Of a stretch of DNA of 64,000 bases, positions 16,054 to 55,725 are shown piece by piece (position 1 is the first letter of the stretch; the number at the start of each line of letters is the position of its first letter). The DNA is from Tardiphaga alba. Lineage in GTDB: Bacteria > Pseudomonadota > Alphaproteobacteria > Rhizobiales > Xanthobacteraceae. The DNA lies in NCBI RefSeq assembly GCF_018279705.1, contig NZ_CP036498.1:947001-1011000 (forward strand). The letters run 5' to 3'. A model generated the notes under the pieces. It ran no database searches. It was not told where the DNA came from and saw only the letters and a program-made list of their open reading frames with translations. The position numbers and the translations under genes were made by a program.

Positions 16054-17666
16054 GTGCAAGAGACGGGCGTACGCAACAGTGCCTATGGCGCTGACAAATT
16101 CGGACTCAAAAACCTCAAAGCGGTAAACTGGAATCTCGGCGCGCCGCAGCTCTATGCGCACTCGCTGAAGAACGGCGAAGCCGAATTGTCGTCTGATGGC
16201 GCGCTCTGCGCAGACACCGGCGACTTCACCGGCCGCAGCCCGAAGGACAAGTTCACGGTCAAGGATGCGTCCACCGAGAACATGTGGTGGGCCGGCAATC
16301 AGTCGATCACCCCGAGCAGTTCGAAGCGCTCTACACCGATTTCAAGAAGCACGCCGAAGGCATGACCCTGTTCGCGCAGGACCTTTATGGCGGCGCCGAT
16401 CCTTCCTTCGCCATCAAGACCCGCGTGTTCACCGAACTCGCCTGGCACTCGCTGTTCATCCGCACGCTGCTGATCCGCCCGGAAGCAGCCGCGCTCGCCG
16501 ACTTCGTGCCTGAACTCACCATTATCGACCTGCCGAGCTTCCGCGCCGATCCGAAACGTCACGGCTGCCGCTCGGAGAACGTCGTGGCCATCGATTTCGC
16601 CCGCAAGATCGTCCTGATCGGCGGGTCTTATTATGCCGGCGAGATGAAGAAGTCGGTCTTCACCACGCTGAACTACTATCTGCCCGCCAAGGGCGTGATG
16701 CCGATGCATTGCTCGGCCAATGTCGGCCCGGATGGCGACAGCGCGATCTTCTTCGGCCTGTCGGGCACCGGCAAGACCACGCTCTCCGCCGATCCGAAGC
16801 GCACGCTGATCGGCGATGACGAGCATGGCTGGGGCAAGGACGGCATCTTCAATTTCGAAGGCGGCTGCTACGCCAAGACCATCAAGCTGTCGGAAGAAGC
16901 CGAGCCGGCGATCTATGCGGCGTCGAAGCGTTTTGGCGCCGTGCTCGAAAACGTCGTTCTGGACGAGAATACCAAGGTGCCGGATTTCGACGATGGCTCG
17001 AAGACCGAGAACACTCGATCGGCCTATCCGCTCGACTTCATCCCGAACGCCTCGCGCACCGGCCGCGCGCCGCAGCCGAAGAACGTGGTGATGCTCGCAG
17101 CCGACGCCTTCGGCGTGCTGCCGCCCATCGCCAAGCTCACCCCGGCGCAGGCGATGTATCACTTCCTGTCCGGCTACACCGCCAAGGTCGCCGGCACCGA
17201 GCGTGGTCTCGGCAATGATCCGGAGCCGGAATTCTCAACCTGCTTCGGCTCGCCATTCCTGCCGCTCGATCCATCCGTCTATGGCAACATGCTGCGCGAC
17301 CTCATCGCCAAGCACAAAGTCGATTGCTGGCTGGTCAACACCGGCTGGACCGGCGGCAAGTATGGCGTCGGCTCGCGCATGCCGATCAAGGTCACGCGCG
17401 CACTGCTGACGGCGGCCCTCGATGGCTCGCTGCGGAACGTCGAATTCCGCACCGACAAGTATTTCGGCTTCGCGGTCCCGACCGCACTGCCGGGCGTGCC
17501 GAGCGAGATCCTCGATCCCGTGAACACCTGGAAGGACAAGGCCGAGTTCGACGCCACGGCCCGCAAGCTGGTCGGCATGTTCCAGAAGAACTTTGCCAAG
17601 TTCGAAGCGCAGGTGGATGCGGAAGTGCGTGCAGCTGCTCCGGACGTGAAGATCGCGGCGGAGTAA
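16054..17666 (+). pseudogene. pckA: Phosphoenolpyruvate carboxykinase (ATP), one frameshift
   Basis: PckA converts oxaloacetate and ATP to phosphoenolpyruvate, CO2 and ADP in gluconeogenesis. The GTG at 16054 is preferred as start because GGAGGA lies 7 bases upstream; the ATG at 16039 lies ahead of that site. The first part reads to [12 protein letters not shown] and the rest continues in another frame as [16 protein letters not shown]. Adding one C to the run at 16310-16313 restores about 537 codons, a normal length. The kinase loop [13 protein letters not shown] and the later [10 protein letters not shown] are intact. The single homopolymer deletion looks like a sequencing error, but a real lesion is possible. 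Confidence 0.93.
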
Positions 17667-17719
17667 GCTGCGTCACAGCCTGAACACGAAAGGGCGGCCG
17701 CGAGGCCGCCCTTTTTGTT
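17591..17719 (+). repeat. Direct repeat copy A: pckA 3' end plus terminator
   Basis: 129 bp covering the last 25 codons of pckA (stop included), its 3' flank and the hairpin terminator. It recurs at 18617-18745 with six mismatches. Every mismatch inside the coding part is synonymous, and the stop differs TAA/TGA. Confidence 0.92.
17692..17717 (+). terminator. Rho-independent terminator of pckA
   Basis: The stem GGGCGGCC-GCGA-GGCCGCCC is followed by TTTTTG. An identical hairpin lies in the second repeat copy at 18718. Confidence 0.9.
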
Positions 17720-17804
17720 GAACGTCACTGTTCAAGCAGGTAAGTAAACGGATTAATCCAGAGATTGTTTCGTTGGTTTTATTTCTCTAAGGTTGAGCTT
17801 TGTT

Positions 17805-18581
17805 ATGAGCGATCAACTGCAGAATTTCGGCGGTACGGCAAAATCGCTAGCGCGTAGCCCGTTGGGTATCATCGCGCTGTTCATTGTGCTCGTGTATGGC
17901 TTTGCATCACTCACGACAATCTTTGCCGCTTCATTTACGCCATTCGAGCGGATGCCATTGATCTGCTTCTTGGTCGTCTTTCCTGTCCTCGTACTTGCTG
18001 TGTTCGCTTGGTTGGTAAGCCATCACTATGAAAAGTTGTTTGGTCCAGGCGATTTCAGGGATGAGCAGAACTATGTGAAGATGCGCATGGCCGTTGTTGC
18101 ATCATTAACTGCGGCGACGACGAAGTCTGATGCCGTATCTCCCGCCGAATTGGGACAAATTGTAGAAACGGCTCAGGCGATTAGACCAAGCCGATCCAGA
18201 TCAGGCAACGGCCGGAAAAATCATATTCTGTGGGTCGACGATCGTCCGCAAAATAATGTTTACGAGCGACAGGCTTTCGAAGCTGTCGGCCTGCAATTCA
18301 CCTTGGCCTTATCGACCGATCAAGCATTAGAGCAGCTATCGTCCAAAAAATACGCGGCGATCATTTCGGATATGGGCAGAAAAGAAGGGCCAAGAGAGGG
18401 CTATGTGCTGCTTGATAGATTGAGGACCGAAGGAGATCTGACGCCATTGTTCTTCTACGCTTCGTCTAACGAGCCGGAACATAAAAAAGAGACCCTGCGT
18501 CACGGCGGGCAGGGGTGTACGAACAATGCTCAAGAACTTTTTGAAATGGTGACAAAGGCAATTGTCATGGGGCAGTCTTAG
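17805..18581 (+). CDS. Two-TM protein with a receiver-like domain, carried on a pckA-flanked insert
   Basis: A 258-residue protein. Two hydrophobic segments (LGIIALFIVLVYGFASLTTI and LICFLVVFPVLVLAVFAWLV) are followed by a cytoplasmic linker. A CheY-like domain then starts HILWVDDRPQNNVYERQAF; the acidic pair is in VDD and the probable phosphoryl-accepting aspartate is in AAIISDMGRKEGP. GYVLLDRLR and PLFFYASSNEPEHK fit later receiver strands. No kinase or DNA-binding domain is present. Base composition is visibly more AT-rich than its neighbours, which suggests transfer. The ATG at 17805 is preferred; a TTG at 17793 is possible. The gene is alone between two pckA 3'-end copies. Its role is unknown. 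Confidence 0.75.
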   Translation: MSDQLQNFGGTAKSLARSPLGIIALFIVLVYGFASLTTIFAASFTPFERMPLICFLVVFPVLVLAVFAWLVSHHYEKLFGPGDFRDEQNYVKMRMAVVASLTAATTKSDAVSPAELGQIVETAQAIRPSRSRSGNGRKNHILWVDDRPQNNVYERQAFEAVGLQFTLALSTDQALEQLSSKKYAAIISDMGRKEGPREGYVLLDRLRTEGDLTPLFFYASSNEPEHKKETLRHGGQGCTNNAQELFEMVTKAIVMGQS

Positions 18582-18616
18582 TCAGCACTAGAGCTGTTCG
18601 GTGTGTTTTAGGAGGT

Positions 18617-18745
18617 CTTTGCCAAGTTCGAAGCGCAGGTGGACGCCGAAGTGCGTGCAGCTGCTCCGGACGTGAAGATCGCGGCGGAGTGAGCTGCGTG
18701 ACAGCCTGAATATGAAAGGGCGGCCGCGAGGCCGCCCTTTTTGTT
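18617..18745 (+). repeat. Direct repeat copy B: second pckA 3' end plus terminator
   Basis: 129 bp that re-encodes the final PckA residues ([20 protein letters not shown] and on), with a TGA stop and the same hairpin, 1026 bp downstream of copy A. It has no upstream coding sequence, so it is a remnant or an attachment-like scar. Confidence 0.92.
18718..18743 (+). terminator. Second copy of the pckA terminator
   Basis: The stem GGGCGGCC-GCGA-GGCCGCCC is followed by TTTTTG, identical to 17692-17717. It now lies after the receiver-domain gene. Confidence 0.88.
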
Positions 18746-18757
18746 TGGCTCGATCTT

Positions 18758-18846
18758 GTAGCCCGGATGAAGCGAAGCGCAATCCGGGAATCAGAGCTTC
18801 CTCATATCGCCGGTCCCCGGATTTCGCTGCGCTCCATCCGGGCTAC
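18758..18846. repeat. Family C palindromic repeat, copy 1
   Basis: It starts gtagcccggatgaagcgaag and ends cgctccatccgggctac, a long imperfect inverted repeat of about 89 bp. Other copies lie at 40506 and 58555. Confidence 0.8.
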
Positions 18847-18862
18847 ACGCAGGTCATTACCC

Positions 18863-19300
18863 ATGAAAAACCTCACCCTTACCTGGCCGTTTTGGGCCGT
18901 CCTCTCCGCGGCCTTTGCTGCGCTCACGGCGATCTTCGCCAAGATCGGCATCGAGAATGTCAATTCCGACTTCGCCACTTTCATTCGCACCATCGTCATC
19001 CTGTTTGCGGCCGGGCTTATGGTGGTGGCCACCGGCAACTGGCAGTCGCCATCGACCATTTCAGGTAAAACGTGGATCTTCCTCGTTCTGTCCGGCTGCG
19101 CCACCGGCGCGTCGTGGATATGCTATTTCCGCGCGCTGAAGCTCGGTGATGCCGCGCGGGTGGCGCCGATCGACAAGCTCAGCGTGGTCTTCGTGGCCGT
19201 GTTTGCGGTGCTGTTTCTCGGCGAGAAACTGTCGCTGCCGAACTGGCTCGGCGTCATCCTGATCGCGACAGGTGCGGTGCTCGTCGCGTATCGGGCATGA
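18863..19300 (+). CDS. EamA-family transporter, half-length
   Basis: A 145-residue membrane protein with about five TM segments, half the size of a ten-TM DMT transporter. It starts MKNLTLTWPFWAVLSAAFAA and contains SGCATGASWICYFRALKLGD and the late-EamA pattern APIDKLSVVFVAVFAVLFLG. Such half-size members probably act as dimers. The substrate is unknown. The ATG at 18863 is chosen because the upstream part of the frame translates the family C repeat. A terminator follows. Confidence 0.88.
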   Translation: MKNLTLTWPFWAVLSAAFAALTAIFAKIGIENVNSDFATFIRTIVILFAAGLMVVATGNWQSPSTISGKTWIFLVLSGCATGASWICYFRALKLGDAARVAPIDKLSVVFVAVFAVLFLGEKLSLPNWLGVILIATGAVLVAYRA

Positions 19301-52161: not shown

Positions 52162-52286
52162 TGTCATCACCCGCCCTGGCGCGCAATTGCGCGCTTGGAG
52201 CGGGTGATCCAGTAAACACTGGCGATGCAATTTGAGCCGAGATATCGGCGTTTACTGGATCGCCCGGTCGAGCCGGGCGACGACAG
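52162..52286. repeat. Family D palindromic repeat, copy 2
   Basis: Contains ggcgcgcaattgcgcgcttg, gggtgatccagtaaac and the matching gtttactggatc arm. It lies between the convergent truA and MTAN-like genes, and may stop both transcripts. Confidence 0.82.
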
Positions 52287-55600: not shown

Positions 55601-55725
55601 TGTCATCACCCGCCCTGGCGCGCAATTGCGCGCTTGGAGCGGGTGATCCAGTATGCGGCGGCGGTCCGGCTCTGGCACTGCTGGCGGTGTTTACTGGGTC
55701 ACCCGGTCAAGCCGGGTGACGACAA
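55601..55725. repeat. Family D palindromic repeat, copy 3
   Basis: Same start as copy 2 (tgtcatcacccgccctggcg) with a matching gggtcacccggtcaagccgg arm. It lies between the pyrimidine nucleotidase gene and dapD. Confidence 0.82.

Follow-up and report, generated by a model that had tools for sequence, protein, structure and literature searches.

A one-gene insert between two copies of the pckA 3' end in Tardiphaga alba, tentatively attributed to recombination with DNA from a relative, and its two-transmembrane receiver-fold cargo

In a 64,000-nucleotide stretch of the Tardiphaga alba genome (contig NZ_CP036498.1, positions 947,001 to 1,011,000; this whole stretch is the window, and coordinates are counted from its first letter), a foreign insert with a single gene lies between two copies of the 3' end of pckA, the gene for phosphoenolpyruvate carboxykinase (ATP). 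The insertion is genuine and of an uncommon kind, and recombination with DNA of a relative accounts for it best. Its cargo, a 258-amino-acid (aa) protein with two transmembrane (TM) segments and an atypical receiver domain, belongs to a family that is of more interest than the insertion and whose function is inferred only. Taken as a whole, the explanation that combines a crossover with a relative's pckA end and an immune-type one-gene cargo is given a probability of about 0.45. The features of the region are as follows.

16054–17666, plus strand: pckA, phosphoenolpyruvate carboxykinase (ATP) (PF01293, E 2.3e-188; open frame 16284–17666, earlier part in another frame)
17591–17719, plus strand: left copy, comprising the last 25 codons of pckA, its 3' flank and a terminator-like hairpin (from the repeat comparison)
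17689–17714, plus strand: terminator-like hairpin of the left copy (palindromic arm of an inverted pair, and sequence)
17720–18591, no strand: foreign insert, guanine-plus-cytosine (GC) content 48.9% (from base composition; no match longer than 150 bp to the pckA flanks of 80 relatives)
17805–18581, plus strand: cargo gene for the 258-aa two-TM protein with a C-terminal atypical receiver domain (from the open reading frame (ORF), Pfam and homologue alignments)
18592–18616, plus strand: degraded pckA-like stretch of 25 nt, 17/25 matching, with an in-frame TAG (from the repeat comparison)
18617–18745, plus strand: right copy, comprising the displaced pckA 3' end (stop TGA), 3' flank and terminator-like hairpin (from the repeat comparison)
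18863–19300, plus strand: EamA-type transporter gene, the ordinary downstream neighbour (PF00892, E 5.7e-24; conserved placement in relatives)

The two copies form a direct repeat with 6 mismatches in 129 bp and a spacing of 1026 bp, exactly as reported in an earlier examination made from the DNA letters alone (the sequence-only reading). The coding part of each copy consists of 24 codons and a stop, TAA on the left and TGA on the right; the three coding mismatches are all silent, and the encoded peptide is identical, which confirms what that reading had said of them. Three random coding changes are all silent in 1.3% of trials (p = 0.013), a result that favours, on three sites only, the view that both copies have served as gene ends. 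A repeat search lengthens the pair to 154 nt at 91% identity. In the added 25 nt to the left of the right copy, the match to pckA is of a level that random 25-mer pairs of the region reach in 7e-5 of draws; this arm holds missense changes in addition to the in-frame stop and is therefore not a preserved gene end. The right edge of the repeat is sharp and falls directly past the hairpin. A direct-repeat scan (at least 70 bp, at least 80% identity, spacing 0.3–6 kb) of 860 kb, which covered the window, relatives' pckA flanks and some further loci, returned 11 pairs. Pairs of at least 120 bp with at least 90% identity were found only in two pckA cases, that of the window and that of a second genome, G239, which was included because its pckA repeat had already drawn attention. 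A chance origin of the pckA repeat pair is excluded. The DNA between the copies, with a GC content of 48.9% against 62.5% for the window, lies below all 1263 windows of the same size and is the most AT-rich stretch.

The pckA end is present as a single copy in relatives. A pckA match is found in all 18 genomes of the genus (the window's own included), and the pckA end aligns once in each of 16 same-genus pckA loci; the EamA stretch lies beside pckA in 8 of these 16, the loci reaching 1.5 kb or less past pckA. A second pckA coding end was found in none of 80 pckA flanks from the family, 15 of them from the same genus, each flank covering at most 9 kb. Short matches of 20–41 bp occur in four of the 80 flanks; three of them are located past the stop, and the match at locus L126, 20 bp long, is near the coding end. 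The full cargo gene is absent from the 17 other genomes of the genus, with G002 matching in the membrane part only. Across 391 family genomes, with six candidates scored per genome, 86 have cargo matches at E ≤ 1e-3; near-full-length matches are confined to the window genome and G030 (51% identity), and the others are of receiver or membrane parts only. The insertion is private to the window genome among the genomes compared. These single-copy sites bear out the proposal of the sequence-only reading that the cargo was inserted at a gene 3' end, and the situation it had named as contrary to that proposal, with the gene and both repeats fixed in all relatives, was not found in the same-genus genomes and flanks.

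An intact pckA that shares its contig with a partial pckA 3' end was found in 2 of the 391 family genomes, the window genome and G239. In this search, up to four candidates were scored per genome, a setting with which short extra pieces may be missed. Two pckA matches were obtained in 28 of the 391 genomes, the window's included; 17 others were re-queried, and G039, G117, G172, G187, G202, G223, G230 and G260 were left out of the re-query. The paired matches in G011 and G014 were rejected as splits over contigs. A search of 265 genomes of one genus gave no clear further case and three ambiguous ones; of its 14 multi-match genomes, 11 were re-queried, and G299, G332 and G380 were covered by the family re-query. 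The ambiguous genomes are G299, G862 and G864, in which the extra pckA ends lie at contig ends, in a genus that has genomes with two long pckA matches, and they are not counted. In G299 (locus L223, contig C16) and G862 (locus L225, contig C14), a common 4-kb region (92.6% identity) directly follows the extra pckA 3' end, which may belong to a second gene copy or to an island. Since these flanks match each other and none of the four two-copy genomes compared, they are left as ambiguous. The contigs with the extra pckA ends of G299, G862 and G864 have no match to the tyrosine integrase family PF00589.

For the control gene dapD, only G037 and G083 among 371 genomes gave extra matches; both of these are fragmented, and none of 305 good genomes gave any. 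This control was run at E ≤ 1e-7 with up to six candidates per genome, and is an imperfect match to the pckA search. The difference between pckA and the control is non-significant. The suggestion of the sequence-only reading that the site marks a small-cargo hotspot is thus unproven, and the flank comparison that it had advised yielded empty single-copy sites, and in one genome only it yielded other cargo between repeats. As a separate observation, the DNA after pckA varies widely across the 80 family loci, even inside a genus; with change this frequent, the junction may break often.

That one genome, G239, belongs to another genus of the family. On a single contig, its pckA is followed by approximately 1.36 kb of unrelated DNA and then by a 280-bp pckA end with 94% identity. 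The cargo (locus L210, 4487–5850) consists of two small genes, for a 104-aa one-TM protein and a 96-aa protein that is ribbon-helix-helix-like by eye, and neither product has a Pfam match. The right copy is nearest to G205, G219 and G137 (94.2–95.3%). The pckA body is nearest to G121 (94.8%), followed by G212 (93.4%), with G219 at 92.9%, and the left copy has four neighbouring diagnostic bases in common with G121 or G212. Over their last 105 nt, the two copies are nearly identical. The presence of two distinct pckA alleles around foreign cargo argues for recombination with a relative's DNA.

The cargo protein of the window combines two hydrophobic segments, recognised by eye, with a linker and a receiver-fold domain, in agreement with its earlier description as the product of one AT-richer gene with two TM segments and a CheY-like domain. 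Pfam Response_reg matches residues 141–238 with 29.1 bits, just below the cut-off of 30.2. All three relatives in the PDB at E ≤ 1e-5 are receivers, and two of these are RcsC. In 24 aligned relatives, the acidic pocket and phosphoacceptor Asp (D145, D146 and D189) are invariant. In the register of RcsC, 22 of the 24 have Ala at the Thr/Ser position and the other 2 have Ser, and a single one (P0079) has Lys at the Lys position. With the usual Lys and Thr/Ser mostly gone, a standard phospho-switch is doubtful. The model for cREC (PF20274) reaches 18.0 of the 27 bits needed in the E. coli homologue, which is under the cut-off, and is not among the Pfam matches of the window protein. In R. phaseoli, a SAV_2336-type protein that neighbours a MoxR ATPase contains a receiver 40% identical to the window protein, and two distant Listeria phage matches lie in the receiver part. 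In viral contigs, five stretches fit a pattern and none encodes a relative of the cargo.

Both halves of the protein are found in other combinations. The linker-receiver part stands behind a TIR domain at loci L095, L098 and L101 (TIR_2, E 4.7e-20, 2e-12 and 1.7e-12, respectively), with receiver-part identities to the window protein of 56% at L095 and 50% at L098. The membrane module is 46% identical in L111, which has a different C-terminus, and is joined to a winged helix in L102 and L105 and to pYEATS in L110. In bacterial immune and conflict systems, a usual layout is one of interchangeable membrane or TIR effectors on one switch and of one membrane module on several sensors, and the domain swaps suggest a single-gene immune-type system. 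Needing no histidine kinase, the receiver-fold module would sense or relay a danger signal and thereby open the membrane module; in the sister proteins, it would switch on the TIR domain as a one-gene immune-type defence. It is tentatively proposed that the family is a widespread one-gene immune-type system, in which a receiver without the Lys and Thr would act as a kinase-independent switch for swappable effectors (a two-helix membrane pore or TIR) and which would travel as one-gene cargo, here displacing a core-gene 3' end. As a side observation, the two-helix membrane module accompanies other C-terminal domains at L102, L103, L105, L106, L112, L110, L104, L107, L109, L111, L113, L002 and L032. 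The C-terminus is PD-(D/E)XK-like by eye in L104, L107, L109, L111, L113, L002 and L032, and no Pfam PD-(D/E)XK family was found in those of them that were scanned (L109 not included).

The family is large and scattered. The window protein matches 2650 proteins at E ≤ 1e-3; among the 120 matches listed, all are of 257–283 aa and, the window's own aside, are 69–77% identical. In species genomes, 61 loci (partial matches included) range from Acidobacteria to Firmicutes and Actinobacteria and to an archaeal metagenome-assembled genome. Within the class, 3 of 385 genomes match at E ≤ 1e-30, the window's own included. A homologue is present in 26 of 5426 E. coli genomes, always on the chromosome. 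In the two E. coli loci inspected, it is located in the interval from yfgI to guaA, where it has an AAA ATPase and a transposase remnant as neighbours (L054, 6018–8762). The counterpart of this ATPase in L052 resembles the AriA and GajA models, among many. At L197, the homologue stands alone between two genes, with no repeat by eye. Among 72 neighbour ORFs from 31 loci, a subset of the 128 ORFs catalogued around homologues, no Pfam family occurs in more than two (among the 25 of 95 families listed); most are metabolic or housekeeping, and no partner histidine kinase appears among these families. The neighbour PADLOC families listed (25 of 43) have one member each, and include the ATPase-type AriA, GajA and LmuB as well as SoFic and mad3. 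In the lack of a constant partner, the cargo reads as a stand-alone gene, and because its neighbours vary by locus, searches based on gene neighbourhood could miss the family. The protein and neighbour search advised by the sequence-only reading led to a large, scattered family, which that reading had not recognised.

To account for the insertion, it is proposed that the foreign DNA, with its one gene, had been linked beforehand to the pckA 3' end of a close relative, probably as part of a circle or some other fragment able to recombine. A single homologous crossover within the common pckA end would have integrated this DNA into the host. As the left copy, the incoming end would complete pckA and keep the 3' end of the gene intact; as the right copy, the host's original end would be displaced by about 1 kb, together with the DNA downstream. 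This crossover would need no integrase. A number of observations weigh against the proposal or its immune-type extension. The window copies differ from each other at 6/129 positions and from every one of the 15 same-genus relatives at 24/129 or more; as neither copy is nearer to any of these, the direction of import is not proven. No circular intermediate was observed, and the circle is inferred. The 25-nt arm is far more diverged (8/25) than the 129-bp repeat, and an att-like arm fits it at least equally well. In G239, the whole left copy is no nearer to G121 and G212 (90.9 and 90.2%) than to G137 and G219 (92.0%); the two copies differ at 16 of 276 positions and in four amino acids, and hence not by silent changes alone; and the likeness of the right flank to G219 is confined to its first 10 nt. 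As read from these alleles, the G239 mosaic is more complex than one crossover. No PADLOC model family matches the window protein at E ≤ 1. Finally, 32 of 36 near-full-length homologue loci have no bracketing direct repeat. The apparent excess of repeats at homologues (4 of 36 loci, compared with 1 of 117 control places within these loci; p = 0.011) depends on a threshold set post hoc (at least 60 bp, 79%) and is a lead rather than a result; at 60 bp and 85%, only the homologue at L069 passes, against 2 of 149 control places. This count left out 25 of the 61 loci (the partial matches L094–L116, plus L059 and L083).

The four repeats are of several kinds. L069 (1–7000, Ancylomarina euxinus) contains a six-copy array of repeats of approximately 190–240 bp with CCTAAC...GTTAGG-like ends, between which lie short gene stretches that include the homologue. 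The array looks like an integron cassette array, with ends that are attC-like by eye; the fold of the repeat is not clearly better than that of shuffled sequences (z −1.22). By eye, the repeats at L081 resemble insertion-sequence ends, and those at L080 and L078 are mostly intergenic. As none of the homologue repeats is, by eye, a core-gene end, the mechanism at pckA is not general for the family, and the cargo gene may be a passenger of various carriers rather than an element of its own.

A local origin of the repeat, in which the pckA end was duplicated in tandem or by homology-assisted illegitimate insertion of foreign DNA and the spare copy then drifted, would agree with the mutual closeness of the copies and with the presence of only three coding differences. 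The absence of the TGA stop of the right copy from the 15 same-genus relatives also speaks for this origin, though TGA occurs in 14 of the 80 family flanks. Such an origin is nevertheless judged rather unlikely, since the three coding changes are all silent, the 25 nt beside the spare copy have decayed much further than the copy itself, and the G239 copies are two distinct alleles. Alternatively, the repeats could be the attL and attR of a small element that integrated site-specifically at the pckA 3' end and supplied a gene end of its own, in the manner of e14 at icd, its integrase having been lost or acting in trans. The restoration of the pckA end with silent changes only, the common target in G239, and a left edge that is sharp at 17591 and gives way to a decayed arm, as would be expected of an attP arm, are in keeping with this. 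Against it, the window's genome has 11 PF00589 matches and none in the window range (serine recombinases were not searched), a result that accords with the absence of an integrase noted in the sequence-only reading. G239 has 10 such matches, of which the single one on the pckA contig lies at 5.5 kb, more than 80 kb from pckA at 88 kb. An integrase sequence search with nine ORFs picked by a crude motif, about five of which read as integrases, gave no match, which is a weak answer. The repeat lengths (129 bp in the window and 280 bp in G239) and the left edges differ between the two cases, and none of the 80 other flanks, each of at most 9 kb, repeats the pckA coding end. Site-specific integration is considered improbable.

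For the cargo, the alternative is a two-component response regulator of the ordinary kind, anchored in the membrane. The receiver-fold match and the intact Asp pocket with its phosphoacceptor would suit that role; the replacement of Lys in 23 of 24 relatives and of Thr/Ser by Ala in 22, the stand-alone gene with varied neighbours and the fusion of the same module to TIR do not, and this possibility is regarded as unlikely. Recombination with a relative's DNA remains the better reading, as the sequence-only reading had favoured on the strength of the synonymous differences; the silent changes and the distinct alleles in G239 speak for import. The insertion illustrates a clean route, with no integrase seen, by which a single gene can settle behind a core gene without damage to its 3' end, twice in one bacterial family. 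The cargo family, which is large, stand-alone and scattered over phyla, and whose swaps join the receiver to two-TM or TIR modules and the two-TM module to receiver, winged helix or pYEATS, offers a testable case for single-gene immunity.

Three further observations concern the window itself. At 16284–16365, pckA is in two frames, with its N-terminal part off-frame from 16284–17666, which is either a real frame break or a sequencing error; same-genus relatives with full-length pckA matches have a single open frame of 541–670 codons. Directly 3' of the right copy, at 18757–18847, lies a REP-like inverted repeat with 32-nt arms (91%). Another direct repeat pair is located at 52162–52285 and 55601–55724 (124 bp, 80.6%).

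The e14 element and phage 21, at the 3' end of E. coli icd, supply a substitute 3' end to a housekeeping gene, the old end being left as a remnant. Both encode an integrase, in contrast to the pckA insert, at which none was found. The insert has features of the attL/attR type, in that each border carries the target gene end as a direct repeat and relatives have an empty single-copy site; only one gene lies between the repeats, and no PF00589-type recombinase lies on or beside the element. According to the excerpted account of the Dehalococcoides ssrA islands (PMC3146451), these likewise lie downstream of a gene and are bounded by direct repeats of its 3' end, and an integration module is present in sixteen islands, not in every one. 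Unlike the pckA insert, they have 20-bp repeats, an identified serine recombinase and many islands in tandem (PMC3146451, same excerpt). For the C-terminal displacement of rhs genes, it has been proposed, in the portion of the paper available (PMC2935791), that a single recombination with a circle that has a matching core shunts the old end downstream. The pckA insert resembles this in the 3' part that would arrive by homologous recombination, in the old end that forms a downstream partial repeat with cargo between, in its variable repeat length and in its limitation to close relatives. The displaced partial copy is present both in the window (129 bp) and in G239 (280 bp). As to an origin of the ends in related lineages, G239 has two distinct alleles with a mosaic left copy, and the window copies are about equally distant from relatives. 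In rhs, by contrast, the tips differ and diversify the gene (PMC2935791, as excerpted), whereas both pckA ends encode the same peptide and pckA gains a passenger only.

With regard to the cargo, a figure legend of the DefensePredictor study (PMC13092281) names a receiver domain among the domains of validated defence systems; the legend gives neither architecture nor sequence. In the open-licence literature, as far as its accessible text extends, no description of a stand-alone 2TM-REC (two-TM receiver) or TIR-REC family was found. The VMAP, iSTAND2 and TERNS3 systems and cREC, in the sections available of PMC7159879, PMC8195603 and PMC7824862, have kinase-less receivers beside TIR or other effectors, which are proposed to be nucleotide-responsive switches. 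Those are multi-gene conflict systems, and the cargo differs from them in being a stand-alone 2TM-REC protein.

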